Source of the DNA: Myxococcota bacterium
GTDB taxonomy: Bacteria > Myxococcota > B64-G9
DNA: 64,000 nt
Direction of reading: 5' to 3'
NCBI GenBank assembly: GCA_022710975.1
Contig: JAKLGA010000005.1
Span: forward strand, 310,001 to 374,000
Shown: positions 8,925-25,300 of the stretch, piece by piece
Layout of the letters: the number at the start of each line of letters is the position of its first letter
How positions within the stretch are numbered: position 1 is the stretch's first letter
The notes under the pieces: generated by a model
What the model was told of the DNA's origin: nothing
Database searches by the model: none
The model's input: the letters and a program-made list of their open reading frames with translations, nothing else
Program-made: the position numbers and the translations under genes

Positions 8925-10676
8925 TCAGGGCAGGGGGAGGGAGAAGGAGTGGGTGGCGGACACGAGCTGGAAGGTGTCCTGGGAGGACCGCCCCGCCTGC
9001 TCGGCCCGGAGCACGAGCGGCGCCCGGAAGTACTGGACCGGCGCCGCGGCCCACCCCCGGCGCTGCTCGAGCTGGATCTGCAGCTCGGCGCCGAGCGCCT
9101 GGTGCTGCTCGGCGAGCTCGAGCAGGCCGAGCCCCTGCAACCACTGGGAGTGGAACCAGCCCAGGTCGCTGCCCGCCAGGCCGTCCACCAGGGCGGTGAA
9201 GTCCTCGGAGGCGAAGGGCGTGTCCCGGTGCAGCTCCCGGAGCGTGCGCAGGCCCCCGGCCACGGCCTGCGGGCCGGCCACGTCCTCCAGCATGCGCAGC
9301 ACCCAGGCGCCCTTGACGTAGGTGATCCTGGGATCCACGGCCACGCCCGGCGCGGGCACCAGGGGCTGCTCGGGCTGGCCCAGGCGGTACAGGCCGAGCA
9401 GCGGCTCCGCCTCCCACAGCCACAGCCAGTCGGCCACCTCGGCGCCGTGCCGCTCGCCCGCGGCGGCCAGGGCCGCGAAGTCCGCGGTGCCCTCGACGAG
9501 CCACAGGTCGCGCGCCTGGGCCGCCATGCTGCCCGACCACCACTGGTGGCAGAGCTCGTGGGCCAGGTAGAAGTCGCGGCGCGGGAAGGAGCCCGAGCCG
9601 TCGTCGTCCCAGGTGTAGTTCGGCACCAGGATCATGCCCGCGGCCGAGAGCCCGCTGGAGAAGCGCTCGTCCACCCCCACCAGGCGGATGGTGCTGACGA
9701 AAGGCTCGGCGAACATCGCGGTCAGGCTCTGGCACAGCGCCGCGACCACCGGCCCGTAGCTGGCGGGCGCGATCGGGTAGCCGTCGATGCTGGTGCCCGG
9801 GATGGCGTACAGCTCGAGGGACACCGGGCCGCAGGCGGCCTCGACCCGCTCGTAGGCGGCGAGGGCGAGCGGCACCCCGCCGCGGCGGGAGCGCTGGAGG
9901 GTCCAGGTCTCGGTGCGGGTGCCGTCGGGGTTGTCGACCGCCGCCCCGCGGGTGCCGGCCATGACCAGGGTGCGATCGGCCGGGAAGGTCACCCGGAAGG
10001 TCCAGCCCGTCCCGTAGGTGGTGCCCAGCGGCTCGGGGAAGTAAGCGTAGCCGTAGGTGAAGTAGGTCGAGGCCGGGCCCAGGAGGTTCGCCAGCACCCG
10101 CCCGCCGCCCTCCTCGAAGGCGTCCAGGTAGTGCTCGATCTCGCCGTCGTGCCACAGCACCTCGAGGGTCCAGGGCTGGCCCGCGGGCACCGGGCTGGCC
10201 GGGGTCACGGTCAGCACGCCGTCGGCGTAGGTGAAGGTGGCGGCGGGGTCCGCGGCGTGGACCGCGTCCACGGCCTGGGCGTCGAGGGCCAGCGCGAGGC
10301 TGGAGAGCTCGGTGCCCACCGCGCCGAGGGAGAGCACGGCCCGGCCCGACAGGTTGCGCTCGGCCGGCCGCAGGGTGAGCTCGACCTCGGCGGCGGTCAG
10401 CGCCGGCGCGGGCCACACGTCGCGGGGCTGTCGGTCGGCGGCGGAACCGGCGCGGTCCCGGGCATGGTCGAGGCAGAAGGCGCGGGGCCCCTCGCGGCCC
10501 CAGGCCGGCCCGCCGAACAGGGCCTGCTGGCCCGGGTCCGGGGCCGGGAGGTCGAGGCGCAGCAGGCGGTGGCCGGGATCGACGATCACCTCGAGCCCGC
10601 CGCTCCCGGCCCCGTCGCCGCAGGCGGCCGCTCCGATCGCCAGCACCGAGATCACCAGGCGCGCAATGCTTCTCAT
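8925..10676 (-). CDS. M1-family (gluzincin) metallopeptidase, putative lipoprotein
   Basis: The 583-residue product starts at ATG 10676 with a signal peptide ending in AAACGDG, probably a lipoprotein anchor. The N-terminal half is a beta-rich aminopeptidase-N-like domain. The zinc motif HELCHQWW is at about residue 373, and the third ligand Glu lies in WLVEGTADF about 20 residues later, the H-E-x2-H-x18-E pattern of M1 peptidases. The canonical GAMEN exopeptidase loop is not visible; the region about 25 residues upstream of the zinc motif reads MILVPNYTWDDD. Specificity may therefore differ from classical aminopeptidases. The gene starts only 8 nt after the stop of the signal-peptidase-like/GNAT gene, so it may be co-transcribed with the peptide cassette, although its high GC content matches the host genome rather than the cassette. 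Confidence 0.75.
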   Translation of the reverse strand: MRSIARLVISVLAIGAAACGDGAGSGGLEVIVDPGHRLLRLDLPAPDPGQQALFGGPAWGREGPRAFCLDHARDRAGSAADRQPRDVWPAPALTAAEVELTLRPAERNLSGRAVLSLGAVGTELSSLALALDAQAVDAVHAADPAATFTYADGVLTVTPASPVPAGQPWTLEVLWHDGEIEHYLDAFEEGGGRVLANLLGPASTYFTYGYAYFPEPLGTTYGTGWTFRVTFPADRTLVMAGTRGAAVDNPDGTRTETWTLQRSRRGGVPLALAAYERVEAACGPVSLELYAIPGTSIDGYPIAPASYGPVVAALCQSLTAMFAEPFVSTIRLVGVDERFSSGLSAAGMILVPNYTWDDDGSGSFPRRDFYLAHELCHQWWSGSMAAQARDLWLVEGTADFAALAAAGERHGAEVADWLWLWEAEPLLGLYRLGQPEQPLVPAPGVAVDPRITYVKGAWVLRMLEDVAGPQAVAGGLRTLRELHRDTPFASEDFTALVDGLAGSDLGWFHSQWLQGLGLLELAEQHQALGAELQIQLEQRRGWAAAPVQYFRAPLVLRAEQAGRSSQDTFQLVSATHSFSLPLP

Positions 10677-10684: not shown

Positions 10685-11689
10685 CTAACCCTTCAGGCGC
10701 TTGACCAGCCAGTGGTCCGCCTCCCGCAGCCCCGCCGGCCGCTCCCACGGGGCCGACTCGAAGAAGCCCCGGGAGCGGAACAGGCCCAGGGAGCGCTCAT
10801 CAACTTCCGGGACCAAGGCTACCACTCCGGTCCACTGGTCCTCGCTGGCGACCGCAACTGCGCGTTCTAGAAGGCTACGTCCCAATCCCATGCCGCGCCA
10901 ACCGCGCTTGACGTGTAGCGAATGAACGAGCCCAAGCGTTCCCGCGCTGACGAGGATCATGCGACCGAGATCAGGGAACCGCTTGCCACCGATCAGGATC
11001 ATCCGGAGGAGCTCATCTTTTGCGGATTGTTCAATGCTCTCGATTCCGAACGGATTGAACTGGCCACTGACTGACAGAGCTTCCGCCAGCACGCGCGCCT
11101 GGTTGCGGACGACGTCCAGAACCGGATCACCGAGCACGAGCCGTCCAATGCTCTGGCCAAACCCACGGAAGGATCCCATCGAGAAAACATCAACCTCGAA
11201 CCTGCGCGTCAAGTACTCAGACCGGATCAGCACCCGCTTTCCTCGGAACGCCAACCCCGACCAGATGCTCGCAAGATCGCGGGACGAAGGGACCTCCAAC
11301 TGAATGGTCCATCCCTCTCTTTCGACCGCAATGACTCGTCCAAGGACTGCAGGAAGAGGGATGGGGCCGTCGATGGTCGTGGCACTGTCGCCCCGGCCGA
11401 AGAGTTGACCATCAACGACTCGTACTACCCGATGTGCAACTATCCGGTCACCTACGGAATACAGTGCAATCATTCCGCGCTTCAGCTCTGTTGGCTTGGA
11501 ATCCACGATCAGGCGATCGCCTGGAAGAATCCATGGGCTCATACAACGGCCGATCATGATGCAACGTTGGAGGCCCTTTTCGCACGGCACTCCACCGAGC
11601 AGCAGAACGCCGGTTGTCTTACTCCCAACGGAAATGAAATCACTCCGCGCAGACAAGACCTTTTGCCTCCGCGCATCTCCCTCACTCAC
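10685..11689 (-). CDS. Signal-peptidase-like (S24/S26) domain fused to a GNAT acetyltransferase
   Basis: I place the start at GTG 11689, overlapping the radical SAM stop by 8 nt (334 residues); an in-frame ATG at 11737 lies deeper in the upstream gene. Residues about 35-125 resemble S26 signal peptidases: KGLQRCIMIGRCMSPWILPGD matches the G-x-S-M-x-P-x(3)-GD motif, but the nucleophile position is Cys49 instead of Ser. A His-Arg-Val-Val motif at 86-89 matches the His of archaeal/ER-type enzymes. The C-terminal 80 residues are a GNAT domain, with the acetyl-CoA loop in RGWRGMGLGRSLLERA. Such S26-like proteins are known companions of HPrK-like kinases and PqqD in RiPP clusters. The likely job is leader cleavage and/or N-acetylation of the peptide encoded at 13503-13682 (inference). 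The gene is low in GC, like its two upstream neighbours. Confidence 0.65.
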   Translation of the reverse strand: MSEGDARRQKVLSARSDFISVGSKTTGVLLLGGVPCEKGLQRCIMIGRCMSPWILPGDRLIVDSKPTELKRGMIALYSVGDRIVAHRVVRVVDGQLFGRGDSATTIDGPIPLPAVLGRVIAVEREGWTIQLEVPSSRDLASIWSGLAFRGKRVLIRSEYLTRRFEVDVFSMGSFRGFGQSIGRLVLGDPVLDVVRNQARVLAEALSVSGQFNPFGIESIEQSAKDELLRMILIGGKRFPDLGRMILVSAGTLGLVHSLHVKRGWRGMGLGRSLLERAVAVASEDQWTGVVALVPEVDERSLGLFRSRGFFESAPWERPAGLREADHWLVKRLKG

Positions 11690-12695
11690 AGCATGGCTCA
11701 ACGCTACGCGTGTGCTCGAAAAGCATGACCCTGGCAACGATTTCCTTCTTCAGCGCCATGTCAACTCCTAACCGATCCGCAACCTTACGACAAATCTCCT
11801 GGTCCTTCAGCCAGCCAAGGCAAAAGCCACACTTCGTTTCCTGATCGGGACGCCTGCTGATGCCCACACGGCGAAGAAACCCCAGTGGGCCAAACACGAA
11901 CAATCCAGCCAACAGAAAACTCCGCCGATAGCGATCAATCAACCTGTCGATGGGCTCTTCCCTGACTGTCCCCACATCCAGCCAGGTTCCTTTCGCCTGG
12001 AACATCAAAGTCGAGCAGCAAGCCATGAAACGGCCATCAGGAAGCACTAGGGGGAGGAGAACGGTACCACAATCCCGCATGGTAGATGGCCCCCGCTGAT
12101 GATCTGCAGGCAAGCCGCGTCCTGTGCCTATCGTCTCGAGATTCTCCCACCCTGGTCGAACTCGGACACTGCTCAGATCTGGGTGGCTAGAGACTCGCGC
12201 CCACTTCTTCCTGGCGAACCTGCCCGTACCCTTGAGACTCACCTCCATGCCAAGTTGGACTGCCTCCCTGAGTAGCCTAATGGCTTCCTGATCAGAAAGT
12301 GCTGGCCGGTGATACTCGTCAAGGCTGAGGGAGAAAATCCTCAAGCCCAGTCGAAATGCTGTGCCGAGCAACTTCCTGGCCTTCTGCCAATCTCGCGACC
12401 ACAGTCCATTCGTCACGATGGCGGCAATTCGGCCATGCGCATCAATACGCGATAAGACATCGAGCAAGCGCTTGGGCTCAAGGAACGGCTCGCCCCCAGT
12501 AAGACTTACAAGGCTCACTTCATCCGGAAGATGTGCCAAAACAGAATGCACCACTTCTGGTTCGTAGGCATCTCTTTGGCGTATCCTACGCGGGAGAAAG
12601 CAGTGCAGGCAATGAGCGTCGCATTTCCAACTTAGCGCCAAGGAAAGGACACGACAACGTAGAATTGGGATCTCAGCTATCACGTGATCAGCCAT
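11682..12695 (-). CDS. Radical SAM protein with SPASM-like C-terminus (peptide maturase candidate)
   Basis: The 337-residue product starts at ATG 12695, overlapping the kinase-like gene by 8 nt. Near the N-terminus Cys25-x3-Cys29-x2-Cys32 (in SWKCDAHCLHC) is the radical SAM cluster motif, followed by the SAM-binding SLTGGEPFLEP motif and the VTNGLWS strand. The C-terminal region carries further Cys in SPASM-like spacing (DCGTVLLPLVLPDGR then ACCS, and KCGFCLGW then EIC, ending EPCC), which could hold an auxiliary iron-sulphur cluster. SPASM-type enzymes typically modify ribosomal peptides by forming thioether or C-C bonds or epimerising residues. The protein is too short to carry its own peptide-recognition domain; the PqqD protein at 20755 could supply it. 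Substrate assignment to the 59-residue peptide is inferred from operon position. Confidence 0.7.
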   Translation of the reverse strand: MADHVIAEIPILRCRVLSLALSWKCDAHCLHCFLPRRIRQRDAYEPEVVHSVLAHLPDEVSLVSLTGGEPFLEPKRLLDVLSRIDAHGRIAAIVTNGLWSRDWQKARKLLGTAFRLGLRIFSLSLDEYHRPALSDQEAIRLLREAVQLGMEVSLKGTGRFARKKWARVSSHPDLSSVRVRPGWENLETIGTGRGLPADHQRGPSTMRDCGTVLLPLVLPDGRFMACCSTLMFQAKGTWLDVGTVREEPIDRLIDRYRRSFLLAGLFVFGPLGFLRRVGISRRPDQETKCGFCLGWLKDQEICRKVADRLGVDMALKKEIVARVMLFEHTRSVEPCCE

Positions 12696-13458
12696 GTCCG
12701 ACTTCCTCGACCAACTTGGTTACATCGTCAAGCCTGCGGAACTGGAGCCTGAAAACCCGCCCAAGACCGATCCAATGTAGAATTGTCGCGAGAGCAACAG
12801 ATCTCTGGCTGGCAAAAACCTCAGGCAACACGGTTTGGAGTGCAAGTGCACCAACTGCAGCATCTAAGGACATTCTATCAATCCTGGCGAACCCACCCTT
12901 CTCAAGGACGAATAGACCTCCCAGGCGACCTCCATTCTGATTACCAGTCCGACCGGCATTATCGAACTGAGGCACGCTGAAGACTTCAACAGATTGTCTT
13001 ATACTTCTGACAGCAATGCGATCGTCATTCACACGCGCAAGCCCACTGGCATTCCTCAAAATGGTAGATTTTCCAGCGCCCGAAGGACCCACAAAAACAT
13101 ATGCCAGTCCATCTTTAAGCCCACAAGACGCGTGCAGCAATAGCCCACGCCTCGCGATTAGCGCCCACACGATCCCGTATCCGATTCCATCGACTAGGGA
13201 CCTCTCGCTCTCCTCATCAATTCCAACCACGACTCGATGCAATCCCCAACCGAGCAACAACGGCTCTGGGGAAATGGACTTCCGAGGACGATCCTCTGAA
13301 ACTCTATTATTGCTCACCAGATCAATGTGCATATACGCGCGTTGAACGCCAACTGTCCGAAAGCCACTCAGAAGCCTTACCAGCGCGCGGGAGGGCCTCG
13401 CCTCGGATTCAACCAGAAAGCAGAGGCCTCCAGCGGTGAAGTAGATGCGATGCCGCAT
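12688..13458 (-). CDS. HPr-kinase-like (HprK-related) P-loop protein
   Basis: The 256-residue product starts at ATG 13458, 44 nt after the small peptide gene. It has the C-terminal HprK fold: a LLLHAS strand, Walker A GPSGAGKST at residues 124-132, and a conserved NDD at 144-146 that in HprK lies near the active site. The N-terminal 100 residues do not match the HprK/P regulatory domain, so this is an HprK-related kinase rather than the carbon-regulation enzyme. Relatives in lasso-peptide and other RiPP clusters phosphorylate Ser residues of the precursor peptide. The neighbouring peptide contains several Ser and Thr that could be targets (inference). It is co-directional and overlaps the radical SAM gene by 8 nt. 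GC is about 52 % in the lines counted, far below flanking genes. Confidence 0.65.
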   Translation of the reverse strand: MRHRIYFTAGGLCFLVESEARPSRALVRLLSGFRTVGVQRAYMHIDLVSNNRVSEDRPRKSISPEPLLLGWGLHRVVVGIDEESERSLVDGIGYGIVWALIARRGLLLHASCGLKDGLAYVFVGPSGAGKSTILRNASGLARVNDDRIAVRSIRQSVEVFSVPQFDNAGRTGNQNGGRLGGLFVLEKGGFARIDRMSLDAAVGALALQTVLPEVFASQRSVALATILHWIGLGRVFRLQFRRLDDVTKLVEEVGHG

Positions 13459-13502
13459 AACAAGAGCACAGAGGAGCGATTCAGTAGCGGGCTAAAGGCG
13501 GA

Positions 13503-13682
13503 CTAGTTGTTCGTACGGCGCGGCCCATCGCGAAATGGTCCGTACCCATCGCCCACCACACCTCCCGAAACGGGGACTTCGCTAGCACCACTGATGGTGT
13601 TCAGCAGAAACTTTACCAGTTTCGATGTGACAGAAGGCTTCAAATAGGTCTTCCGGTTCCTAGGCTGCTGAATTTTTGTCAT
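13503..13682 (-). CDS. 59-residue candidate RiPP precursor peptide
   Basis: The ORF starts at ATG 13682 with a strong GGAGGA ribosome-binding site in the 18-nt gap after the FG-GAP gene, and ends at TAG 13503. The N-terminal part is basic (Arg8, Arg10, Lys11) and carries Tyr13-x2-Pro16-x-Val18, resembling the Y-x2-P-x-L leader motif that PqqD-type RRE domains recognise in lasso and related precursors. A Leu/Val/Lys helix follows (residues 19-30). The C-terminal part is a Gly/Ser-rich candidate core: Ser-Gly-Ala-Ser at 31-34, Gly-Gly at 40-41, then GDGYGPFRDGP and a basic end RRTNN. It has no Cys. It is followed by HprK-like, radical SAM and S26-like/GNAT genes, the expected surroundings of a precursor. 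Function as a precursor is inferred from motif and context. Confidence 0.65.
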   Translation of the reverse strand: MTKIQQPRNRKTYLKPSVTSKLVKFLLNTISGASEVPVSGGVVGDGYGPFRDGPRRTNN

Positions 13683-13700
13683 GGGATTCCTCCAAACAAA

Positions 13701-16700
13701 TCAGTAGCGAACTACCAGTTGGCCGCTACTATTGGCGCCTACTGCCAGGTCAGGCAGTGAATCACCGTTGTAGTCACCGACCGAAAGGTCCACACCAAAA
13801 TAAGATCCGTTGGCCCCGGAAAGCACACTGCTCGGCAAGCTATCAAAGAAAGGCGAACCACCAGCGGCTGTTCGATTATTCATAAACAGGAAGGCGCGAT
13901 GCCCGCCGGAGGAATTACATCCCACCTGCAGATCGGGCCAACCATCCATGTTGAGGTCCGCGGCATCGAAAGCGATACCAAACCAGATATTTTCTCCCCA
14001 GGATAGGCGTCTTGCGAAAACAGGGTTGATTGCTACGGCTGGATCACCCGCCACCACATGACCCGGTAGCAGGTAGACTTGGTTAGCGTAGGCGCTTGAT
14101 ACAACTAGATCCAGAATCCCGTCACCAGTGACGTCCATTCCTCCGATGGCAAACTGTCCAAATCCGCCATTGTCGATGACCGCACCGTAGGTGATCAGGT
14201 CCACACGGTGGCTCGCGTTGCCCGGGCTCACGTCGCCCACGATGCTACTGATGTTTGCGCCGTCAAAGGTGTAGGTCTCATTCACACGCGAGGCGCTGAT
14301 GGCAACGTCGTCGAATCCGTCTCCATCCATGTCACCCAGGCTCGTGTTGCCGTAGCGGGATCCCAGACGGTCATCGGCATCGATGCCGAGGAACTTGATC
14401 TCGGCCTCGGCCGCTGGCACGAACCGGACACCGGACTCGAGGCCGGTCCGCACGTTGGTGTCGTCGAACCAGTAGTAAAGCGTGGGATGGGCAGGGTCCA
14501 CGGCTGAACGCGGCCGGCCATAGAAGATGTAGCCACGGCCATTCAGGTCGAGCCGGTTGGCTGAGACGAACAGGTCACCATATCCGTCCCCATTGACGTC
14601 ACCCATGGCGGCGTAGCTGAGCCCGAACCGGCCAGTGGTCGCTGTGTTTCCGCGAATCTCCAAGTCTGGTCCCGTCGGCGGGTTGGCAGCAAGGTCGGCG
14701 CGGCCGAAGTAGATCGATAGCCTGCCACGGTAAGACTGGAAACCATTTCCCCCGATGGCGAAGTCGTCCACTCCATCACCATCGATGTCGCCGATCTTCT
14801 GCACGAAGAACGCGAACGATTCACCAGCGGTCCCATGAAGCAGCGGGATGGGAGTGGCCGGAAGGTTCCATGTGCTCAGATCAGTCGCACCGAGGAATAG
14901 CCAGGCCGCACCGTAGTTGGTGCTGTAGGTGGCGGCGCCGACCACGAGATCGTCGCGCCCATCGCCATTGACGTCGCCGACGTTCCGCAGAGTGTAACCA
15001 AAGTTGACTGTTGCAGGGCCCGTGTAGGCCACTTCGTTCCAGTTGTTCCCCACCAGCACGTCCCCGTGGATCGGGCTCTGGTTGCCCACCTCGTCCACGG
15101 CGCGGACCGCCACGTGGTAGTCGTTCAGCGGCGGGAGCACCAGGTTCGCGCCCACACTCGCCCCGCTGTACACCTGGTACACCGGATTCGGCCAGGTGGT
15201 GCCGGTGTAGAACCAGCGCGCCTCGTCGTTGATGGCCGCGCGCGACCAGCGCACGTTGTAGGCCGCCGGCGTGCCCGTGGCGCCGTCGTCCCCCACCGCC
15301 GCCCAGCCCACCACCACGTCCGCGTGGCGGCTGGCGGCCGGATCCGCCCCCAGCGCGGCCGTGGCCGCCAGCATGGCCGGGGCCTGCACGTCCGCCGTGA
15401 CCGACAGGTCGAGGGTCGCCTCGTTGCCCGCGTAGTCCCGCACCCGCGCCACCAGCGCGTGCACCTGGTCGTGCGCGAGCTGGGTGTTCGCGTACACCAC
15501 GTTCTCCGGGCTCCCGTACACCAGGCTCGGCCCCTGGATGGGCGTGCCGCCCCGCTCCAGGGTCAGGGTGGCCTCGAACCCGTTCGCGATCTGGTCGTCG
15601 GTCACCGTGAGCTCGAAGTCCATGTCGCAGCCGCCGCCGGCCACCTTGTCGCGCACGTAGCTCGCCGGCGCCGGGGTGTTGGGATCGTCCAGGTGCAGGT
15701 TGCCGCTGCTCGCCACGCAGAACACGTCGGCCGCGCCCGGGCGCACCCGGGTCAGGGTCGGCAGCACCATGTCGACCAGCTCGACCGTCACCAGGTCCGT
15801 GGTGATGTGCCCGGCCTGGTCGTCGATCTCGGCCGTGAGCTCCACGTTGGCCGCGCCCTGGGCGAGCGTGACCCCGCTCCAGGTGGCGCAGCCCGCGCCG
15901 TCGGGCGCGACACCCGCGCCGAAGGGCGTCCCGCCCACGAGCAGCCGCAGGCGGCAGCCCGGGCAGGTCAGGTTGGTGCAGGCCGCGCTGCAGGCCGTCA
16001 GGTTCTGCTGCAGCCCGTTGCCGGCGTTGCCGTCGAGGTCGTCCGCGGCGTTCCACAGCTCCGTGCTGCTCAGCCCCTGGAAGCTGAGGTCGCAGCCGGC
16101 GATGGTCACCGACACGTTCAGGATGGTGTCGCTGGCCGGGTTGCCGGCCGGGTCGCGGGTGGTCACGGTGAGCGTCTGCCCGGCCCCCGGGGAGAGGTTG
16201 CAGTTGAAGGAGGTGGTGCCGCTGCCGTCCACCGGCACCTGGCAGCGCTGGCCGCCCACGCTGGAGACGACCGTGATGGTCTGGCTCGCGTCCGTGCCGC
16301 TGGTGGCGCACACGAAGGGGACCTGCTGCTGGACGAAGCTCGCGTCGTCCAGCGGCTGGGAGCAGGCGATGGTCGGCGCCAGGGTGTCCACCAGGACCGG
16401 CCGGCTCGCCTGCACGGCCGGGTTGCCGCAGGCGTCGCTCACGTCCGCGCTGAGGGTGGTGTTGCCCTGCCCCAGGCTCTCCACCCGGCTGGCCACGCCG
16501 CCCGAGACCGTGGCCGTGGCCCCGGCCATGGGCCCGAAGGTGACCACCTGGCCGTCCTCGGCGTCGGTGGACACGGCCAGGCTGAGCTCGAGGTCGTCGG
16601 TGGCCGGATCCAGGACGTCGTCGGCCTTGACCAGGGTGCTCTTGCTCGGGCTGGTCAGCAGCAGGCCGGGCGCGGTGGTGTCGACCGACAGCAGCACCCA

Positions 16701-19700
16701 CGCCTCGGGGTCGTCGATGATCGGCGCAGCGGCCCGGATGTTCGGGTTGTCGAGCGCGTCGCTCAGCACCACGGTGAGGTCGTAGTCGCCCTCGGCCAGG
16801 CTGACCGAGAAGGTGGCCAGCCCGCCGCTGACCGTGGTGGTGCCCAGCGAGCTGCCGGGCGGCCAGTTGCGGTACAGGGTGGCGGTGCGGTCCTGGACCC
16901 CGGTGCCCTGGTCGGACACCACGGCCTGGAGCTGCAGCCCGCCCTCGGCCTGGTTCAGGCAGCCGTCGGCGTTCGCGTCCGAGAGGACCGTCAGCGTGTC
17001 CACCGTGGGCGGCAGGCTGTCCACGACCAAGGCCACCCCATTCGAGAACGTGCCCTGCCCCGGCAGGTCGGCCGGGGCGGCGAAGGCATACAGGGTGATG
17101 TCTCCCTCGGGGATGTCCACGCAGGAGAGGATGGTGGTCCCGTCCGCCGTGGCCACCGTGCCCTGCCACAGCGAGCGGCCGAACCCCGCCGCGGTGCAGC
17201 GATCCGGCGAGCCCGGGACGGGCAGGGGGCAGGGGCCCTCGCACACGCACAGCTCCAGGAGGTCCCCCGCCACCACCCCGTGGGTCAGGATATCGACCTG
17301 GGTCTGCAGCCCGTCCGGCGGGCACATGTCCGAGAAGATGTTCAGGTTGCCGGCGACAGGTCGGGTGATGATCACCTCGGGCGCGGACAGGTTGATGAAC
17401 ACGTCCGACAGATCCGAGTCCGGCGGGTTCACCGGGTCGCTGATGGTGGCCAGGATGGACACGTTGGCCTGGATCGGACCGGCAGGCATCAAGGTCACCG
17501 CCGGGAAGACATAGATGTTGGTCTGGCCCGCGGCCAGGGTGTGCGTGTCGGCGACGATCCCATCCACCTGCAGCTCCACCACGTCGCCCACCTGGGCGTT
17601 GGTGAACTGGCAGCGCACGTTGTACTGGAACCCGGACGCGGCCGACACGTCCGAGGCTGCGCCCAGGATGGAGCCGTTGCTCGGGCTGGTGATGACCACC
17701 AGCGGCGCCTGCCGATCGACCAGGATGTTCCGCGCCGGAGACTCGGCGCAGTGGCCCGCGCAGTCGCAGGCCTCGGCCGTGACCGCGTGGGCGCGATCGG
17801 CCAGGGTGACGACCGGTCGAGCGACGCCGCCCGAGAAGGTCGGGCTGTCGATCAGCTCCTCGACGTCATTGACGGCCACAGGTCGTCCGTCCTGGACGTC
17901 TGCGGTGACCTCGAGCTGCATCTGGAAGCCGGCCCTGACCGGATCGAAGTCCACCGCGGCGGCGCCCACGCTCAGGTCCGCGGCCGGGTCGGTGATGGCC
18001 ACCGTGGGTGTGGTGAGATCCACGATCACCCGCACCGGCAGCGAGGTGCCCACCGTGCCGAGCTGGCCCGGCGCGCTGGCCCAGAGCTGGTAGTCGCCCT
18101 CCCCGCCGAGGTCCACGGTCAGCGCGCAGCTCCCGTCCACCTGCAATTGCGCGACCTGCCCATCCGCCGCGGTGCACTCGGGCACCGGCTGCGGGTCGTA
18201 CGCCCGCACGCACACCAGGCAGTCGCCGGTGGCGTTCGCGGTCTGGGCGGCCAGCTGGTAGCTCGCGAGCTCGCCGCAGGTGTTGTCCGCGGGCGCGGTG
18301 ATCACCACGCTGGGCGCGTTGGGCTCCCCGACGAACAGCAGCAGCTCCTCGAGGCTGGTGTCGCAGGAGTTGGTCGCCTCGACCTCCAGGCTCACCTGCC
18401 CGTTGGGGAGCTGGACCCCGGCGAAGGTGGCCACGCTGCCGGCCCAGGTGGGGCTGGTGTAGCTCACGCTGACCGCGCCCTGCACCACCCGCAGCTCGAG
18501 GCTGCCCAGCCCGGCGACGAAGTCCAGCACCTCCACCTGCACGTCGTAGGCGGCGCCGTCCGGGACCTCCACGGGCTCCGGCAGGGAGCCGTCGGGATCG
18601 AGGAAGGTGATCACCGGCCCGCCCGCGCAGGGGAAGGCGGTCACGGTGATGGCGTCCGTGGCCGGGTTGCCGTGCGCGTCGGTGAGGGACGCCGTCAGCA
18701 GCGTGTCCCCGCTGAAGAGGGTCACCGGGAGGGTGAAGCTGCCGTCCGCCGCGACCGTGCCGGTGAAGGCCTGGGTGTTGACCCCGTCGCTGGCGGTCAC
18801 GGTCACGAGCTGGCCGACCGCGTCGGTCGAGCCGCCCGAGACCTGGATGTCCAGGTGCCCGAACACCGCCCGGTCCGGCGGATCGAGGATCTCCACCGTG
18901 GGCGCCAGGGTGTCCACGGTCACGGTGACCATGGGCGAGACCTGCTGGGTCTGGAGCTGGCACCACAGGCCCTTGTCCTCGCCGTCCAGGAGCGTCACCT
19001 CACCGCTCCAGCCGTTGGCCTGGACCGGCAGCCCCGCCAGGGTGTCCTGGCCGCCGATGTGCAGATCGAAGGTGAAGCCGTCGGGCACGTTGGCCGTGAC
19101 CACATGGACGGTGGTCTGCAGGCCGTCCGCGGGGTCGGCGTTCTGGTCGTCGGCCAGGAGCAGCACCGCGCCGTCGGCGGGCGCCACGATCTGGCAGGTG
19201 AGCTGCTCGGTGAGCACCGGGACCTGGTGCACCGCGCTCATGCCCTCGTCCTCGCAGGTGCTGCGGGCCTTGACCTGGACGGCGTAGGTGCGCGACTGCA
19301 GCAGGTCGAGGTACTGGAACTCGAACGCGCCGCCGGGCTGGAACAGGGCCGGCTGCAGGGGCGCGCCGTCCTCCTCCACCACCACGCCGTCGAGCTCGAG
19401 CCACAGGCCGTCGGGCGAGGTCACGCCTTGCGAGGTGCCGCGGACCGCGATCTGGATGCCCATGGCGGCCGGGTCGCGATCGCTGGTGTCCGTCAGGGTG
19501 ACGCCCTCGGCGGGGGCCTCGAGCGCGACCGCCACGCTGGTGGCGCACACCCGGTACACGTTCGTCAGCGAGCGGCCCTCGGGGCCACCCGGGGCCGCCA
19601 CCGTGGCGAACGCCGCGTGGGTGCCGTCCGCGAGCGTCACCACGAACTCGGCCCGCCCGCCCGCGAGCACGCCCTGGGACAGCTCGCCGCCCACGTCCAG

Positions 19701-20621
19701 CGTCACCGCGGCGCCGTCCGGGCAGGCGAAGGCGCCGTCCGCGTCGGTCTCCACCTCCGCGCGGATCTGCAGCCCCTCGGCGACGGGGTCCTGATCGTCC
19801 GCGGCGCGCAGCACGCTGCCGTCCGGCGGCAGCAGGCGCACGGCGCAGCCGCCCGTGTCCACGATCACCGAGATCTCCGCGCCCACCGGGTTGCCGTCGG
19901 GATCGGCCACCTCGGCCCGCAGCAGGTTGAGGCCCTCGCCGAGCTCCACCGCGGTGAAGCTGGCGCTGGCCTGGCGGAGCGCCGTCTCCAGGGGCAGCGC
20001 CGCGCCGACCACCAGCGACAGCAGGGCGCCGTCGTCGATGCCCTTGCAGGTGAGCACCACGTCGTGCTGGAAGCCGGGCGCGCCCGAGGCGTCCTCGGCC
20101 GCGACCAGCGTGGCGCCGTCCTGGGGCACGTCGAACCGGCAGGCCGGCAGGCCGAGCTGGACCAGCACGTCCTTGCAGCCCTCGACTGGGTCCACCAGAC
20201 GCGCGGAGCAGGAGCCCTCGCCCTCGGCCAGCCAGGTCACCTCGACCCCGCCGGAGGCGCACACCCGGTTGCTGCCCTCGAGGAAGGTCTGCATGCCGAG
20301 ATCGACGTGCCCGTCGCCCGTGGCCGCGTCGTCCAGGACCACCCGGCCCTCGACCTGCTCGCCGGGGACCTGGCTGTTGGTGTACAGCAGCCGCGTCCCG
20401 TCGGGGATGCAGTGCGTCCGCAGGCGCACGTCCACCTGGATGCCCAGCTCGTTGGCGTCCTGGTCGTGGAACTCGGTGAGCGCCCCGCCGGTCGGGCTCA
20501 GGAAGGTGATGGCCGGCTCGCAGTCGCAGGTGGGTGCCGCGGAGTCATCGCAGGCCGGCGCCCACATCACCAGCCCCAGGAGCCACAGATTTCCCACCAT
20601 CAAGCGCGCGAGCGAACGCAT
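13701..20621 (-). CDS. Giant secreted repeat protein with C-terminal FG-GAP propeller
   Basis: The 2306-residue product starts at ATG 20621 with a GGGGAGGTAG ribosome-binding site. The N-terminus is a lipoprotein-type signal ending in APACDDS. Residues about 30-1850 form many Ig/Big-like beta-sandwich repeats, each with a V-x-I-x-x-P-x-D-G start and DDQDPVAEGLQIRAEV-like segments, often with a Cys pair. The last 440 residues carry seven FG-GAP/VCBS calcium-loop motifs (such as DVNGDGRDDLVVGA, DIDGDGVDDFAIGG, DMDGDGFDDVAISA), enough for a seven-bladed propeller. It is probably surface-exposed and adhesive. The DNA composition changes near 15,050: the Ig-like part is about 75 % GC, the propeller part about 50-60 %, matching the peptide cassette downstream. 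The peptide gene starts 18 nt after its stop, so the giant protein and the cassette share a transcript. Confidence 0.85.
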   Translation of the reverse strand: MRSLARLMVGNLWLLGLVMWAPACDDSAAPTCDCEPAITFLSPTGGALTEFHDQDANELGIQVDVRLRTHCIPDGTRLLYTNSQVPGEQVEGRVVLDDAATGDGHVDLGMQTFLEGSNRVCASGGVEVTWLAEGEGSCSARLVDPVEGCKDVLVQLGLPACRFDVPQDGATLVAAEDASGAPGFQHDVVLTCKGIDDGALLSLVVGAALPLETALRQASASFTAVELGEGLNLLRAEVADPDGNPVGAEISVIVDTGGCAVRLLPPDGSVLRAADDQDPVAEGLQIRAEVETDADGAFACPDGAAVTLDVGGELSQGVLAGGRAEFVVTLADGTHAAFATVAAPGGPEGRSLTNVYRVCATSVAVALEAPAEGVTLTDTSDRDPAAMGIQIAVRGTSQGVTSPDGLWLELDGVVVEEDGAPLQPALFQPGGAFEFQYLDLLQSRTYAVQVKARSTCEDEGMSAVHQVPVLTEQLTCQIVAPADGAVLLLADDQNADPADGLQTTVHVVTANVPDGFTFDLHIGGQDTLAGLPVQANGWSGEVTLLDGEDKGLWCQLQTQQVSPMVTVTVDTLAPTVEILDPPDRAVFGHLDIQVSGGSTDAVGQLVTVTASDGVNTQAFTGTVAADGSFTLPVTLFSGDTLLTASLTDAHGNPATDAITVTAFPCAGGPVITFLDPDGSLPEPVEVPDGAAYDVQVEVLDFVAGLGSLELRVVQGAVSVSYTSPTWAGSVATFAGVQLPNGQVSLEVEATNSCDTSLEELLLFVGEPNAPSVVITAPADNTCGELASYQLAAQTANATGDCLVCVRAYDPQPVPECTAADGQVAQLQVDGSCALTVDLGGEGDYQLWASAPGQLGTVGTSLPVRVIVDLTTPTVAITDPAADLSVGAAAVDFDPVRAGFQMQLEVTADVQDGRPVAVNDVEELIDSPTFSGGVARPVVTLADRAHAVTAEACDCAGHCAESPARNILVDRQAPLVVITSPSNGSILGAASDVSAASGFQYNVRCQFTNAQVGDVVELQVDGIVADTHTLAAGQTNIYVFPAVTLMPAGPIQANVSILATISDPVNPPDSDLSDVFINLSAPEVIITRPVAGNLNIFSDMCPPDGLQTQVDILTHGVVAGDLLELCVCEGPCPLPVPGSPDRCTAAGFGRSLWQGTVATADGTTILSCVDIPEGDITLYAFAAPADLPGQGTFSNGVALVVDSLPPTVDTLTVLSDANADGCLNQAEGGLQLQAVVSDQGTGVQDRTATLYRNWPPGSSLGTTTVSGGLATFSVSLAEGDYDLTVVLSDALDNPNIRAAAPIIDDPEAWVLLSVDTTAPGLLLTSPSKSTLVKADDVLDPATDDLELSLAVSTDAEDGQVVTFGPMAGATATVSGGVASRVESLGQGNTTLSADVSDACGNPAVQASRPVLVDTLAPTIACSQPLDDASFVQQQVPFVCATSGTDASQTITVVSSVGGQRCQVPVDGSGTTSFNCNLSPGAGQTLTVTTRDPAGNPASDTILNVSVTIAGCDLSFQGLSSTELWNAADDLDGNAGNGLQQNLTACSAACTNLTCPGCRLRLLVGGTPFGAGVAPDGAGCATWSGVTLAQGAANVELTAEIDDQAGHITTDLVTVELVDMVLPTLTRVRPGAADVFCVASSGNLHLDDPNTPAPASYVRDKVAGGGCDMDFELTVTDDQIANGFEATLTLERGGTPIQGPSLVYGSPENVVYANTQLAHDQVHALVARVRDYAGNEATLDLSVTADVQAPAMLAATAALGADPAASRHADVVVGWAAVGDDGATGTPAAYNVRWSRAAINDEARWFYTGTTWPNPVYQVYSGASVGANLVLPPLNDYHVAVRAVDEVGNQSPIHGDVLVGNNWNEVAYTGPATVNFGYTLRNVGDVNGDGRDDLVVGAATYSTNYGAAWLFLGATDLSTWNLPATPIPLLHGTAGESFAFFVQKIGDIDGDGVDDFAIGGNGFQSYRGRLSIYFGRADLAANPPTGPDLEIRGNTATTGRFGLSYAAMGDVNGDGYGDLFVSANRLDLNGRGYIFYGRPRSAVDPAHPTLYYWFDDTNVRTGLESGVRFVPAAEAEIKFLGIDADDRLGSRYGNTSLGDMDGDGFDDVAISASRVNETYTFDGANISSIVGDVSPGNASHRVDLITYGAVIDNGGFGQFAIGGMDVTGDGILDLVVSSAYANQVYLLPGHVVAGDPAVAINPVFARRLSWGENIWFGIAFDAADLNMDGWPDLQVGCNSSGGHRAFLFMNNRTAAGGSPFFDSLPSSVLSGANGSYFGVDLSVGDYNGDSLPDLAVGANSSGQLVVRY

Positions 20622-20754: not shown

Positions 20755-21240
20755 TCAGTTCGTCTCGACCAGGCCCTTCTTGGCGAGACACTCCACGAAC
20801 CACAGGGTGTCGGACTCGGCCCGGGAGCCCTCGACCTCGAACTCCGCGGCCAGGGTGGAGGCCACGTCGCGGATGGTGCGCTTCCCGTCCAGCAGCTGCC
20901 AGATGCGGGTGCCCACCTCGTTGAGCGAGTGCATCATGCTGTCGGCCGGGGTGACGATCACCGCCTCGCCCTCGATCATGCGCCAGGCCACGTCCTTGCG
21001 CAGGTTGATCCGGCTGTCGAGCTTGTACGCCAGCCGCACCGGGGCCTTGGCGGGCTTCGCCGGCTTGCCGGCGGCCTTGCCCGCCCCCTTGCCGGCGGGC
21101 TTGCCTGGCCTGGCCGGCCTGGCAGCCTTGGCCGGGGCCTTGGCCGGGGCCTTGGCCGGAGCCTTGGCGGTCTTGGGGGCAGGCTTGTTCGACTTGGCGC
21201 CGGCCTTGCTCGCGGGGACGGTCTTCTTCTTGGTCGCCAT
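20755..21240 (-). CDS. PqqD-family protein (RRE-like) with Lys/Ala/Pro-rich tail
   Basis: The 161-residue product starts at ATG 21240, preceded by GAGGA. Residues 2-67 are a histone-H1-like run of Lys, Ala and Pro with K-A-P-A repeats. Residues 68-161 form a PqqD winged-helix domain (typical length about 90): three beta strands (VAWRMIEGEAVIV), then ADSMMHSLNEVGTRIWQLLDG and the TIRDVASTL helix. PqqD domains are the RRE modules that bind leader peptides and present them to radical SAM or cyclase enzymes. It sits one gene upstream of a peptide with a suitable leader motif and a radical SAM protein without its own RRE, so it may serve them. Against this, it has its own promoter and host-like GC. 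The basic tail could bind DNA, RNA or acidic protein and is unusual for the family. Confidence 0.75.
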   Translation of the reverse strand: MATKKKTVPASKAGAKSNKPAPKTAKAPAKAPAKAPAKAARPARPGKPAGKGAGKAAGKPAKPAKAPVRLAYKLDSRINLRKDVAWRMIEGEAVIVTPADSMMHSLNEVGTRIWQLLDGKRTIRDVASTLAAEFEVEGSRAESDTLWFVECLAKKGLVETN

Positions 21241-21281
21241 GGTTTTTCCTCGTGTGGACGCGCTGCGCAAAAAACGCCGCT

Positions 21282-21311
21282 AGGATAGAGGCATCCGGTG
21301 GGAGGTGTCAA
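21282..21311 (-). promoter_or_regulatory. Sigma-70-like promoter of the pqqD-like gene, overlapping the glcF stop
   Basis: Minus-strand TTGACA (21306-21311) and TATCCT (21282-21287) are separated by 18 nt. The TGA stop of glcF lies inside the -35 box. The leader would be about 35 nt and contains GTTTTTTG and the GAGGAAAAACC ribosome-binding site. Confidence 0.65.
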
Positions 21312-22582
21312 CTCCAGCGCCGCAGCGCCTCGGCCGTGGTGAGCACCTCCATCTCGCTCCCCGCCCGGGCCAGCAGGTCCTGGAGCTGCAACCAGCAACC
21401 CGAGCACTCGGTGACCACGTAGCGCGCGCCGGTCTCGATCAGCCGGCGGGCCTTGTCCTGCCCGAGGGCCTCGCTGAGCTCCGGGTGGTGCAGGGCGAAC
21501 GTCCCGCCCTGGCCGCAGCAGCGGCAGGGGTGGGAGGGCTCGACGAAGCGCAGGCCGGGGAGCCAGGTCAGCAGGAAGCGCGGGGCGTCCTTCTCGCCGA
21601 AGCCCCGCGACAGGTGGCAGGGATCGTGGTAGGTGAGCGCCGGCAGGTCGGCGGAGGCCCCCCGGCCCGGCCCCTCGCCGCGCACCCCGCCCAGGCCGGT
21701 GACCACCACGGAGAAGGGCTTCACGCGCGCGGCCAGCGCCCGCGCCCGCTCCGCCCGGGCGGGATCCCCGGCCAGCAGCCCGGGCAGGTGGTGGGCCAGC
21801 ATCGAGGCGCAGGAGGCGCACGGGCTGGTCACCAGGTCGGGCCCGGGTTCGCCCGCGGGCCAGAGCGCCTCGAGGTTGCGCGCGGCCAGCGCCCGGGCGC
21901 CCTCGACCGCCCCGGAGGAGAAGGCCGGCAACCCGCAGCAGCCCTGGCCGGCCGGGGCCTCCACCCGGGCCCCCGCGGCGGCCAGCACCTCCAGGGCGGC
22001 CTGGGCGGCCTCGGGCCGCAGGTAGTTGTTCACGCAGCCGACGAACAGGGCCACCCGCGGGCCCTGCCCCGCGGCCTGGGCGGCCTGCGGCCGCTCGAGG
22101 AAGAAGGGCCGGGCGAGCGCGGGCAGCCGCCGCCGGGCGCCGCCGGGCAGCCGGGCGAAGCGCAGGTGGAGGCCGCTCTCCCCGGGCACCCGGGCGGCCC
22201 ACACCCAGCGGGTCAGCCGCGCCAGCCCGAGCAGGCGCGCCAGCCCGCGCCGGCCGGGCAGCAGCCGGCCGAGCACCAGCCGCTCCAGCCGCCCGAGCCG
22301 ACCGCGCTCCGCGAGCCCGGCCCGGGCCGCGCGCACCACCCGGGGGACGTCCACCTGGTTCGGGCAGCTGTTGGTGCAGCGCCCGCACAGCAGGCAGGCG
22401 GTCAGCAGGTGGCGGTAGAGCCCTTCGTCCCCCAGCACCCCCTCCTCGCGCGCGGCCACCAGGGCCAGCTTCCCGCGCGCCGAGCCGGCCTCGCGCCGCA
22501 TCACCTCGTACACCGGGCACACGCCCATGCACGTGCCGCAGCGTATACAGCGTCGAAGCTCGTCGAGGACGGTGGGATCCAT
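21308..22582 (-). CDS. glcF: Glycolate/lactate oxidase iron-sulphur subunit
   Basis: The 424-residue product starts at ATG 22582. Two ferredoxin-type [4Fe-4S] motifs lie at the N-terminus (CIRCGTCMGVCP and CLLCGRCTNSCP). They are followed by two CCG domains: GCVNNYLR with GQGCCGLPA, and DPCHLSRGF with HPCRCCGQGG, then TECSGCWLQLQ. This is the GlcF/LutA-type architecture, which takes electrons from the flavin subunit GlcD during oxidation of glycolate or lactate. The flavin gene is the next upstream on the same strand, 179 nt away. Together with etfAB further upstream, it fits a pathway feeding electrons from a 2-hydroxyacid to the quinone pool. The exact substrate cannot be read from sequence. 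Confidence 0.85.
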   Translation of the reverse strand: MDPTVLDELRRCIRCGTCMGVCPVYEVMRREAGSARGKLALVAAREEGVLGDEGLYRHLLTACLLCGRCTNSCPNQVDVPRVVRAARAGLAERGRLGRLERLVLGRLLPGRRGLARLLGLARLTRWVWAARVPGESGLHLRFARLPGGARRRLPALARPFFLERPQAAQAAGQGPRVALFVGCVNNYLRPEAAQAALEVLAAAGARVEAPAGQGCCGLPAFSSGAVEGARALAARNLEALWPAGEPGPDLVTSPCASCASMLAHHLPGLLAGDPARAERARALAARVKPFSVVVTGLGGVRGEGPGRGASADLPALTYHDPCHLSRGFGEKDAPRFLLTWLPGLRFVEPSHPCRCCGQGGTFALHHPELSEALGQDKARRLIETGARYVVTECSGCWLQLQDLLARAGSEMEVLTTAEALRRWS

Positions 22583-22761
22583 GGGCTACACGATCCAGAA
22601 ATTTCTATGAGGGTGTGTTGGCCGGGGGTGGCCATGGGCCTCCGGCACACCAGACTTCAAGGCTGGACCGGCTGGAGTGCCCGGGCTGAACACAGGGCCG
22701 CACGCCGGTGGGTGAATCGAGCCATCCACTCGCGGCGGCCACGCCGGTGAGGGATTGGGCT
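22583..22761. other. Structured intergenic region between glcD and glcF
   Basis: This 179-nt gap is unusually long for the operon and rich in inverted repeats. On the plus strand GGTGTG ... CACACC (from about 22613) encloses an inner stem CCGGGGG/CCTCCGG. A second stem pairs GTGGGTG with CATCCAC (about 22708-22729) inside GGCCGC/GCGGCC. Near-direct repeats containing ACGCCGGTG occur at about 22702 and 22742. A 10-bp palindrome AGAAATTTCT lies about 24 nt before the glcF ATG and could be an operator. No ORF or promoter is convincing. Confidence 0.4.
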
Positions 22762-24177
22762 TCACCTCGGAGGGACCTCGGCTTGGTCCTGCACGGGGAA
22801 GATCTTGCCCGGGTTCAGGATGTCGAGCGGGTCCAGGGCGGCCTTGACCGCGCGCATGGCCGCCATGGCCCGGGGGCCCAGCTCCAGCCCCAGGAAGGGC
22901 TGCTTGGCCGTGCCGATGCCGTGCTCGCCGCTGATGCTGCCGCCCAGCGCCACCGCCAGCTCGAAGGTGGCCCGCACCGCCTGGCCGGCCCGCGCCATCT
23001 CCCCGGCGTCCTCCGGGTGCACCAGGATGTTCACGTGGATGTTCCCGTCCCCGAGGTGGCCGAAGCAGGCGCAGGCCACGCGGGCCTCCGTCGCGATGCG
23101 GTGCACGCCGGCCACAGCCTCGGGCAGGCGGACGATCGGTACCACGATGTCCTCGTTGAGCTTGTGGGGCGCGATGCGCGCGAGCGACGGGCCGAGCGCC
23201 CGCCGGGCGCGCCACAGCCGCTCGGCCTCCGCCTCCGAGGCGGCCAGCTCCACGCGGCTGGCGCCCGCGGCCGCCATGACCGCGCGCACCGCCCCGGCCT
23301 GGCGCTCCACCTCGGGCGCGGAGCCGTCCACCTCCAGCACCAGGACCGCGGCCACCCCGGGCGGCAGCCCCAGGGGCTCCACGGCCTCCACCGCCCCCAG
23401 GGAGGCGTGATCCAGGAACTCGATGGCCGCGGGCACGATCCCGGCCCGCAGGGTGGCGCCCACGGCCGCGGCGGCCCCCTCCAGCGTCTCGAAGCAGGCC
23501 AGCAGCGTGCCGCGGGCCGCGGGCGCGGGCAGCAGCCGCAGGGTGGCCTCGGTGATCACCCCCAGCGTACCCTCGGAGCCCACCAGCAGCGATAGCATGT
23601 CGTACCCGGCCACGGACTTCAGCGTGCGCGCCCCGAAGCGGGCGATCTCCCCGTCGGCCAGGACCGCCTCGAGCGCCAGCACGTACTGGCGGGTGACCCC
23701 GTACTTGACCGCCCGGGGGCCGCCGGCGTTCTCGGCCAGGTTGCCGCCGAGGGTGCAGGCCTCCAGGCTCTGGGGATCGACCGGGTAGAAGAGCCCCTGG
23801 TCCTCGACCGCCTCCTGGAAGTGCTTGAGGACCACGCCGGGCTGGACCACGGCCTGCAGGTTGTCGAGATCGATGCGCAGGATGCGGTTCAGGCGCTGGG
23901 TGCTGAGCACCCACCCGCCCCGGATGGCCCGCGCCCCGCCGGTCATGCCGGTGCCCGCCCCGCGCGCCACGAGCGGCGTGCGCGTGCGCGCGGCCAGCCC
24001 GACCACGGCCGCCACCTGGGCGGTGTCCTCCGGCAGCAGCACGGCCTCGGGCGGGCAGCGCGGCGCGCCGGGCGTGGCGTCGTAGGAGTAGGTCAGGAGC
24101 TGGGCCGGATCGAGGAGCACGTTCGCCGCGCCCAGGATCCGCTGCAGCTCGCCTCGCACGCCTCGCTCGAGCGTCAC
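22762..24177 (-). CDS. glcD: FAD-linked 2-hydroxyacid oxidase (glycolate/D-lactate dehydrogenase)
   Basis: The 471-residue product starts at GTG 24177, chosen because a GGAGGT ribosome-binding site lies 6 nt upstream. The N-terminal FAD-binding (PCMH) domain has ARGAGTGMTGGA, TLGGNLAENAGGPRAVKYG and GSEGTLGVITEATLRLLP. The C-terminal FAD-oxidase domain has FGHLGDGNIHVNI and the GGSISGEHGIGTAKQ motif with conserved Glu/His. This is the GlcD/Dld-II family of about 470 residues, which oxidises glycolate or D-lactate and passes electrons to an Fe-S protein (GlcF) or to ETF. A terminator separates it from etfA, so expression may partly depend on read-through or on its own promoter. Confidence 0.85.
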   Translation of the reverse strand: MTLERGVRGELQRILGAANVLLDPAQLLTYSYDATPGAPRCPPEAVLLPEDTAQVAAVVGLAARTRTPLVARGAGTGMTGGARAIRGGWVLSTQRLNRILRIDLDNLQAVVQPGVVLKHFQEAVEDQGLFYPVDPQSLEACTLGGNLAENAGGPRAVKYGVTRQYVLALEAVLADGEIARFGARTLKSVAGYDMLSLLVGSEGTLGVITEATLRLLPAPAARGTLLACFETLEGAAAAVGATLRAGIVPAAIEFLDHASLGAVEAVEPLGLPPGVAAVLVLEVDGSAPEVERQAGAVRAVMAAAGASRVELAASEAEAERLWRARRALGPSLARIAPHKLNEDIVVPIVRLPEAVAGVHRIATEARVACACFGHLGDGNIHVNILVHPEDAGEMARAGQAVRATFELAVALGGSISGEHGIGTAKQPFLGLELGPRAMAAMRAVKAALDPLDILNPGKIFPVQDQAEVPPR

Positions 24178-24237
24178 GCCGCACCTCCGCGCGCCATCCT
24201 GCACCAGACCCCCGCCCGAGCACAACACCCACCCACG

Positions 24238-24273
24238 AAAAAGCCCCGCCCCCTCGTGGAGGGAGCGGGGCCG
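24238..24273 (-). terminator. Rho-independent terminator after etfA
   Basis: On the minus strand a strong GC stem (GCCCCGCTCCCTC pairing with GAGGGGGCGGGGC, small loop ACG-like) is followed at once by TTTTT. It lies about 35 nt beyond the etfA stop and ends the tal-etfB-etfA transcript. Confidence 0.75.
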
Positions 24274-24305
24274 GGAGAACACGGGTGCGCGCCCGGGGCG
24301 GGCGG

Positions 24306-25268
24306 TCAGCCCTTGGCCTTCTTGATCTCCTCGATCATCTCGGGCACGGCCTTGAACAGATCGCCCACCAGGCCGTAGTCGGCCACCCCGAAGATGGGGG
24401 CCTCCTCGTCCTTGTTGACCGCCACGATGACCTTGGAGCCCTTCATGCCGGCCAGGTGCTGGATGGCGCCCGACATGCCGAGCGCGAAGTACAGATCCGG
24501 GGCCACCACCTTGCCGGTCTGGCCCACCTGCAGGTCGTTGGGCACCCAGCCCGCGTCCACGGCCGCGCGGGTGGCGCCCACCGCGCCGTGCAGCAGGTCG
24601 GCGAGCTGCTCGATCACCTTGAAGTCGCCCTTCGTGCCGCGGCCGCCGGAGACGATCACGCTCGCCTCGGTCAGCTCGGGCCGCGAGGACTTGATCTCCT
24701 CGAACTTGACGAAGCGCTTGCGCAGCTTGGCCAGATCCACGTTCACCGCCACGGCGGACTTCTCGCCGCCCGCGGCGCCCTTCTCGGCCGGGGCGAACTC
24801 GGTGGCGCGCACGCTGACCACCTTGATCGGGCTGGTGATCTCGGCCGCCACGATGGCGTTCCCGGCCCAGACCGGCCGCAGGAAGTGGCCCTGGTCGTCG
24901 GTGCCCACGATGTCGGAGCACATGCCGGCGCCGAGCTTGGCCGCGACCCGCGGCAGCATGTCCTTGGTCATGGAGGAGGAGGTGGCGCCCACCACGCTGG
25001 CCCCGATCGCCTTGGCCACCTCCGCCACCACGATGGCGTAGCTCTCGGCCAGGTAGCTCTGGAGCGCCGGGTGCTCGGCCACGTGCACCTTGGCGGCGCC
25101 GTAGCACATGGCCTCCTCGGCCGCCTTGCCCGCGCCCGGCCCCATCACCAGGATGTGGACCTGGCCGCCCTGCTTGGCCGCGTACTGCTTGGCGAAGGTG
25201 AACGCCGCGCGGCACACCTTCTTGATCGTCCCGTCCTTGTGCTCCGCCAGAATGAGAACGTTGCCCAT
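24306..25268 (-). CDS. etfA: Electron transfer flavoprotein alpha subunit
   Basis: The 320-residue product starts at ATG 25268, with GAGGAGACGAAC as ribosome-binding site. The C-terminal FAD-binding domain is canonical: SGGRGTKG, then the ADLLHGAVGATRAAVDAGW helix, GQTGKVVAPDLYFALGMSGA, and AVNKDEEAPIFGVADYGLVGD. With EtfB it forms a soluble heterodimer that carries electrons from flavin dehydrogenases to the membrane quinone pool. It lies 32 nt downstream of etfB and upstream of glcD-glcF, suggesting the partner is the GlcD-type dehydrogenase (inference from gene order). Length is usual for the family. Confidence 0.93.
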   Translation of the reverse strand: MGNVLILAEHKDGTIKKVCRAAFTFAKQYAAKQGGQVHILVMGPGAGKAAEEAMCYGAAKVHVAEHPALQSYLAESYAIVVAEVAKAIGASVVGATSSSMTKDMLPRVAAKLGAGMCSDIVGTDDQGHFLRPVWAGNAIVAAEITSPIKVVSVRATEFAPAEKGAAGGEKSAVAVNVDLAKLRKRFVKFEEIKSSRPELTEASVIVSGGRGTKGDFKVIEQLADLLHGAVGATRAAVDAGWVPNDLQVGQTGKVVAPDLYFALGMSGAIQHLAGMKGSKVIVAVNKDEEAPIFGVADYGLVGDLFKAVPEMIEEIKKAKG

Positions 25269-25300
25269 GTTCGTCTCCTCGCGCGCCCGCTCGCAGCGGC

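Follow-up and report, generated by a model that had tools for sequence, protein, structure and literature searches.

A putative RiPP precursor with a YxxP leader, encoded beside a giant FG-GAP lipoprotein and candidate modification enzymes in Myxococcota

Comparison with described peptide systems

In the epipeptide system of Bacillus subtilis (YydF/EpeX with YydG/EpeE), the radical SAM enzyme EpeE acts on a small peptide and uses C223 as its hydrogen-atom donor (PMC8326336, PMC5682303). In kinase-containing lasso peptide clusters, exemplified by paeninodin and by bsf of Bradymonas sediminis, homologs of HprK phosphorylate serine in the lasso precursors (PMC8498205, PMC10368454), and the YxxP motif is an established recognition motif for RiPP recognition elements (RREs) (PMC12710340). 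An FG-GAP repeat protein encoded at the edge of the bsf cluster was presumed uninvolved by the authors of that study (PMC10368454); homology of that protein to the lipoprotein described below is not established. Myxococcota are known for social and predatory behaviour.

We analyzed a 64,000-nt stretch of a genome from this phylum (assembly GCA_022710975.1, contig JAKLGA010000005.1, positions 310,001 to 374,000), hereafter the window, which contains the following features.

8925-10676, minus strand: M1 peptidase-family lipoprotein (HExxH), accessory (Pfam Peptidase_M1, E 1e-9; orthologs)
10685-11737, minus strand: S24/S26 signal-peptidase-like domain (GRCMSP...AHRV, Cys/Ser + His) joined in one protein to a GNAT acetyltransferase domain, start uncertain (Pfam, motifs in relatives)
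11682-12695, minus strand: EpeE-type (YydG) radical SAM enzyme with CxxxCxxC, C209, C226-C227 and C289xxC292 (TIGR04078, EpeE sequence and model matches)
12688-13458, minus strand: predicted HprK/PEPCK-fold kinase with Walker A GPSGAGKST and conserved H109 and D146 (alignments and model)
13503-13682, minus strand: putative precursor peptide, 59 aa (orthologs and profile)
13683-13700, minus strand: 18-nt gap from the FG-GAP gene to the peptide gene, holding the ribosome-binding site GGAGGA (sequence)
13701-20621, minus strand: giant lipoprotein, 2306 aa, with a signal peptide with lipobox-like Cys, Big repeats and C-terminal FG-GAP beta-propeller repeats (Pfam)
20755-21240, minus strand: PqqD-like RRE (Pfam PqqD, E 3e-17; syntenic orthologs)

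The locus shares with the B. subtilis epipeptide system a radical SAM enzyme of the same fold and Cys set and a small precursor peptide. However, the precursors have no recognisable similarity, and the window cassette adds PqqD, the YxxP leader, the HprK/PEPCK-fold kinase, the S26 peptidase and the giant lipoprotein. A canonical epipeptide of the YydF class was rejected, since neither an M50 protease nor an ABC transporter is found among the operon genes.

The kinase-containing lasso clusters are similar in their YxxP leader, PqqD-like B1 protein and HprK-homologous kinase, which would favor reading the peptide as a lasso precursor. Nevertheless, this alternative is practically ruled out for this genome, barring an unrecognised cyclase and protease, as the cassette has no B2 protease or macrolactam cyclase: the B2 leader protease family PF13471 has no match at E ≤ 1e-5 anywhere in the genome of the window, and no asparagine-synthetase-like cyclase occurs among the cassette genes. 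A homolog of the cassette FG-GAP protein is absent from eleven loci, ten of which surround PF13471 matches, in families f13, f15 and f21. In family f13 (loci L263, L267 and L269), genes picked up by an EpeE-like profile occur close to genes of the lasso-type transglutaminase fold (PF13471), and L263 and L267 also carry HprK-like genes.

Weaker resemblances were found to the SynChlorMet cassette of NCBIfam, with the kinase related to ScmC, PqqD to ScmD and the radical SAM enzyme to ScmF, but all of these matches are far below the curated cut-offs and the window has one radical SAM enzyme of another type rather than SPASM enzymes. A probable RiPP cluster in a Clostridia metagenome-assembled genome (MAG; L119, 9615-13695) has the order PqqD, SPASM-like radical SAM enzyme, YxxP peptide, HprK-like kinase, S26 peptidase and nucleotidyltransferase. 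Thus, it likewise unites PqqD, a YxxP peptide, an HprK-like kinase and an S26 peptidase in one operon, but differs by its SPASM-like instead of EpeE-type radical SAM enzyme, its nucleotidyltransferase and the lack of an FG-GAP gene. In the open-access literature that we searched, the remark on the Bradymonas lasso cluster is the only one to connect FG-GAP, PqqD and HPr kinase. While RiPPs themselves are known, the partnership of a RiPP cassette with an FG-GAP lipoprotein is thus probably undescribed.

The peptide gene

The ORF at 13503-13682 starts with ATG at 13682 and has 59 codons (translation MTKIQQPRNRKTYLKPSVTSKLVKFLLNTISGASEVPVSGGVVGDGYGPFRDGPRRTNN). The initial annotation, made from sequence alone, had proposed a small ORF at these coordinates, preceded by a GGAGGA site and starting 18 nt past the FG-GAP gene; all three statements held. 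It gave no strand; a plus-strand reading of 13503-13682 was rejected, and the ORF belongs to the minus strand. The distance from the FG-GAP stop codon to the peptide ATG is 18 nt (the gaps in relatives are short too), and 5 nt separate the end of GGAGGA from the ATG. With only 59 residues, the gene was overlooked because it is short. No Pfam or NCBIfam model matches the peptide, and its own genome has just one further match, at a weak E of 0.5.

The peptide consists of a leader with the motif Y13-x-x-P16...S20, a variable middle part and the C-terminal sequence GYGPFRDGPRR. The annotated residues Tyr13, Pro16 and Val18, the Tyr and Phe of the C-terminal end (Y47 and F50) and the absence of Cys were all confirmed. 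The ORF meets the criterion for a RiPP precursor, namely a short conserved ORF beside modification enzymes, and also that for an RRE-recognised one, which combines a YxxP leader with an RRE/PqqD protein in the same cluster.

Four same-family genomes (G004, G006, G007 and G008) have similar short ORFs, each adjoining an FG-GAP homolog, and a fifth ortholog was found at the same locus position in G005; the five represent five other genera. In the alignment of the six same-family peptides, including that of the window, Y13, P16, S20, P49, R51, P54, R55 and R56 are invariant, the C-terminus has a common GPxRxxPRR-like motif, and an aromatic residue beside GP in the core is mostly conserved. When 15 peptides are aligned, Y13 and P16 remain invariant in all of them, the leader is constant and close to PYxxPxxxSE, and the core is strongly variable, with conservation falling after about residue 26.

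A profile built from the five same-family relatives, with the window sequence excluded, ranks the ORF first among all 393 window ORFs of at least 25 aa (E 1e-11; next 0.72). With a profile restricted to other families the ORF is again first (E 0.0014), and one from family f8 alone fails to recover it (rank 2, E 0.14). Among orthologs within genus g27 of another family, dN/dS is 0.03-0.30 for pairs with finite dS, indicating purifying selection on these orthologs. The initial annotation had named a search of related genomes as a check; that search returned syntenic orthologs and, in g27, low dN/dS. The obvious objection is that a short ORF without matches to standard family models arose by chance and has no function. 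This is contradicted by the profile recovery, synteny and dN/dS, which leave almost no room for a chance ORF and establish 13503-13682 as a real conserved gene.

The PqqD protein, giant lipoprotein, kinase and peptidases

Relatives with sufficient sequence share the gene order of the window: PqqD, giant lipoprotein, peptide, kinase, radical SAM enzyme, S26-type peptidase and M1 peptidase. Intergenic gaps in the window are short or negative, with a maximum of 133 nt. Contig ends truncate the loci of G006 and G005. In G004, the M1 gene is preceded by a methyltransferase-like ORF on the opposite strand.

The PqqD gene, for which the ATG at 21240 was assumed as start, adjoins the FG-GAP gene in loci with upstream sequence. 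Its product has a long N-terminal tail rich in Lys, Ala and Pro, as does that of G008. The giant lipoprotein matches the FG-GAP (E 3e-28) and bacterial Ig-like Big_13 (E 3e-14) families of Pfam. Because the lipobox-like Cys is present in all ten FG-GAP orthologs inspected, the protein is probably anchored at the membrane surface, an inference that rests on sequence alone.

The kinase is predicted by its structural model (pLDDT 88) to have an HprK/PEPCK fold with a Walker A motif: it aligns with PEPCK at Z 15.2 over 243 residues, and Foldseek also matched HprK/P entries. D146 is conserved within the family, if not in every distant member. Activity on the peptide is inferred.

In the product of 10685-11737, the GNAT domain scores above the Pfam cut-off and the S24 domain below it. 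The S26-type nucleophile position is occupied by Cys in the window and G004 and by Ser in G008 and G005. The partner residue in this domain is a conserved His, which replaces Lys. The M1 lipoprotein gene is conserved in the family of the window and in f31.

The radical SAM enzyme

Among NCBIfam models, the radical SAM enzyme is matched best by TIGR04078, which describes the YydG epimerase (E 1e-21), at 77.6 bits versus an equivalog cut-off of 300 bits, which it fails. When PDB sequences were searched with an eight-row alignment, EpeE entries were the only strong matches (E 3e-30). The AlphaFold model (pLDDT 84) aligns with EpeE at Z 25.7 over 299 residues, compared with Z 19.4 for the next, viperin-like family; identity to EpeE in the model alignment is about 17%. 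Cysteines C25, C29, C32, C209, C226, C227, C289 and C292 are invariant in eight homologs and aligned with the cysteines of EpeE. The EpeE C223A entry identifies C223 as the second Cys of the CC pair, which is aligned to C227 here. D210 of EpeE falls in an EpeE insertion of the alignment and has no aligned counterpart in the window enzyme.

Given the score of 77.6 bits against the cut-off of 300 and the missing counterpart of D210, the reaction could differ from that of EpeE. In one such alternative the peptide is still a RiPP precursor, and the enzyme, rather than epimerising it, cross-links it through C-C or C-O bonds or oxidises it. Besides these two points, it is supported by the large divergence from EpeE, and the mostly conserved core aromatic residue beside GP would suit cross-linking. 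On the other hand, all EpeE cysteines, including the hydrogen donor, are invariant in the eight homologs, and cross-linking SPASM enzymes match less well than EpeE in the model comparison, so that we regard this alternative as improbable. Epimerase-like chemistry is the likely reading, inferred from the sequence and model; equivalence to EpeE is not shown.

A single-sequence search of the genome contigs with this protein found nothing. The alignment-based search retrieved two MAG contigs of the same family, the rest being more distant radical SAM proteins.

Distribution of the cassette in Myxococcota

Profiles of nine and then fifteen peptides were run on 195 genomes of Myxococcota. The fifteen-peptide profile has matches in 29 genomes, and in 28 of these the peptide directly follows an FG-GAP ortholog; the weak match in the remaining one, G181, was rejected as a cassette member since no FG-GAP gene adjoins it. 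A kinase homolog follows in all 28 except G006, where the contig ends. Weak matches in G092, G128, G098 and G095 proved on inspection to be cassette members. The C-terminal part of the FG-GAP protein was found in 32 of the 195 genomes (E ≤ 1e-18); the G001 locus stops at a contig edge and was excluded as unreadable. Beyond the 28 profile-found loci, YxxP peptides were located at the expected place in G132 and G104, and none was recognised after the FG-GAP gene of G103. Altogether, a YxxP peptide directly follows the FG-GAP gene in 30 of the 31 loci with a readable 3' flank, and these loci fall into four families (f1, f8, f27 and f31).

The constant parts of the cassette are PqqD, the lipoprotein, the peptide and the kinase. 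The S26 gene is present in most loci, and the GNAT domain in the window and, by sequence, in f8. The radical SAM gene is restricted to f1, one genus of f27, and f31, and was not seen in the f8 loci. Since f8 lacks this gene and its peptide cores contain Cys (e.g. CDPFGDPRPEC), the tailoring appears to vary while the leader is kept. G092 retains the core motif with no radical SAM gene nearby. In G104 (L225, 1988-2161) the peptide gene overlaps the FG-GAP stop codon and encodes a core rich in Cys, with six such residues.

The electron-transfer flavoprotein genes etfB-etfA are located directly upstream of PqqD in f8, f27 and f31. The position of etfBA being kept across families, the cassette locus is likely to be old. 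Within 20755-26053 of the window, genes for an FAD-linked oxidase and an Fe-S CCG protein intervene between etfBA and PqqD.

Another explanation is that the peptide is an adapter or targeting peptide, the true enzyme substrate being the FG-GAP lipoprotein or another protein. In its favor, the cassette retains the FG-GAP gene just as constantly as it does the peptide, and the core varies strongly as the leader stays constant. However, a YxxP leader paired with PqqD is what one usually finds for a modified peptide, the substrate of EpeE itself is small, and the C-terminal motif is conserved within the family. We consider the adapter explanation very improbable.

Proposed maturation and role

Our preferred reading, which we hold with moderate confidence, is that the gene encodes the precursor of a RiPP that is epimerised, probably phosphorylated on Ser or Thr, trimmed, and active together with the giant lipoprotein. 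Whereas the conserved gene, its YxxP leader, the conserved cassette and the fold and motif matches are shown, the chemistry and function are inferred, without peptide, modification or expression data. PqqD would bind the YxxP leader and bring the peptide to the enzymes. The EpeE-like enzyme would abstract a C-alpha hydrogen and return one from C227, giving at least one D-residue in the core; lineages without the radical SAM gene would skip this epimerisation. The kinase would phosphorylate the peptide on a Ser or Thr, and leader removal would fall to the S26-type Ser/Cys-His peptidase; the GNAT domain may acetylate the product, and the M1 enzyme is a possible trimmer. Against this reading, no dedicated exporter was found among the cassette genes, and G092 keeps its core motif in the absence of a nearby radical SAM gene.

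The peptide gene is paired with the lipoprotein gene in almost all genomes, so a joint role of the mature peptide and the lipoprotein is most likely, though gene neighbourhood is its only basis. The peptide would act as a ligand, cap or regulator of the lipoprotein propeller and not as a free antibiotic. A bolder reading, offered as no more than a possibility, is a phylum-wide RiPP class whose product is the dedicated partner of a giant, integrin-like lipoprotein (Ig and FG-GAP propeller) at the surface. Such a class would have a constant YxxP leader, a genus-variable core, maturation by the HprK/PEPCK kinase and S26(-GNAT) protein, and D-residues in some lineages; its products would serve in recognition or adhesion at the surface, not as antibiotics.

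The modified-peptide precursor proposed in the initial annotation is supported as by far the best reading, given the YxxP motif and the PqqD, radical SAM, kinase and S26 genes conserved with the peptide. Its epimerisation and phospho-Ser options fit the neighbouring enzymes, and the C-C or C-O links that it also listed are not excluded. Its exclusion of lanthipeptides and sactipeptides for want of Cys, a criterion that neither the window peptide nor its same-family orthologs meet, holds for this family only, the f8 cores being the exception. The core boundary that it placed within residues 30-41 remains unresolved. Finally, it overlooked the FG-GAP gene as a constant partner and the phylum-wide cassette.

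These observations add an apparently undescribed, widely conserved modified-peptide cassette to Myxococcota and provide a defined candidate substrate gene for an EpeE-like radical SAM enzyme. The putative RiPP is tied to a giant surface lipoprotein, and a RiPP role in cell-surface recognition therefore becomes testable. FG-GAP genes beside RiPP clusters, dismissed in at least one published cluster, merit re-examination.

Local sequence composition

Horizontal replacement of a block reaching from the C-terminus of the FG-GAP protein to the S26 gene is conceivable; it is unproven because divergence is the same in the N- and C-parts of the FG-GAP protein. For the same genome pairs, PqqD and M1 have diverged less than the kinase, radical SAM and S26 proteins. 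GC3 falls from about 0.97 to 0.5-0.67 across window positions 10685-15000 (from the FG-GAP C-terminal part to the S26 gene) and is back to 0.98 in the M1 gene. G008 has a similar GC3 dip.
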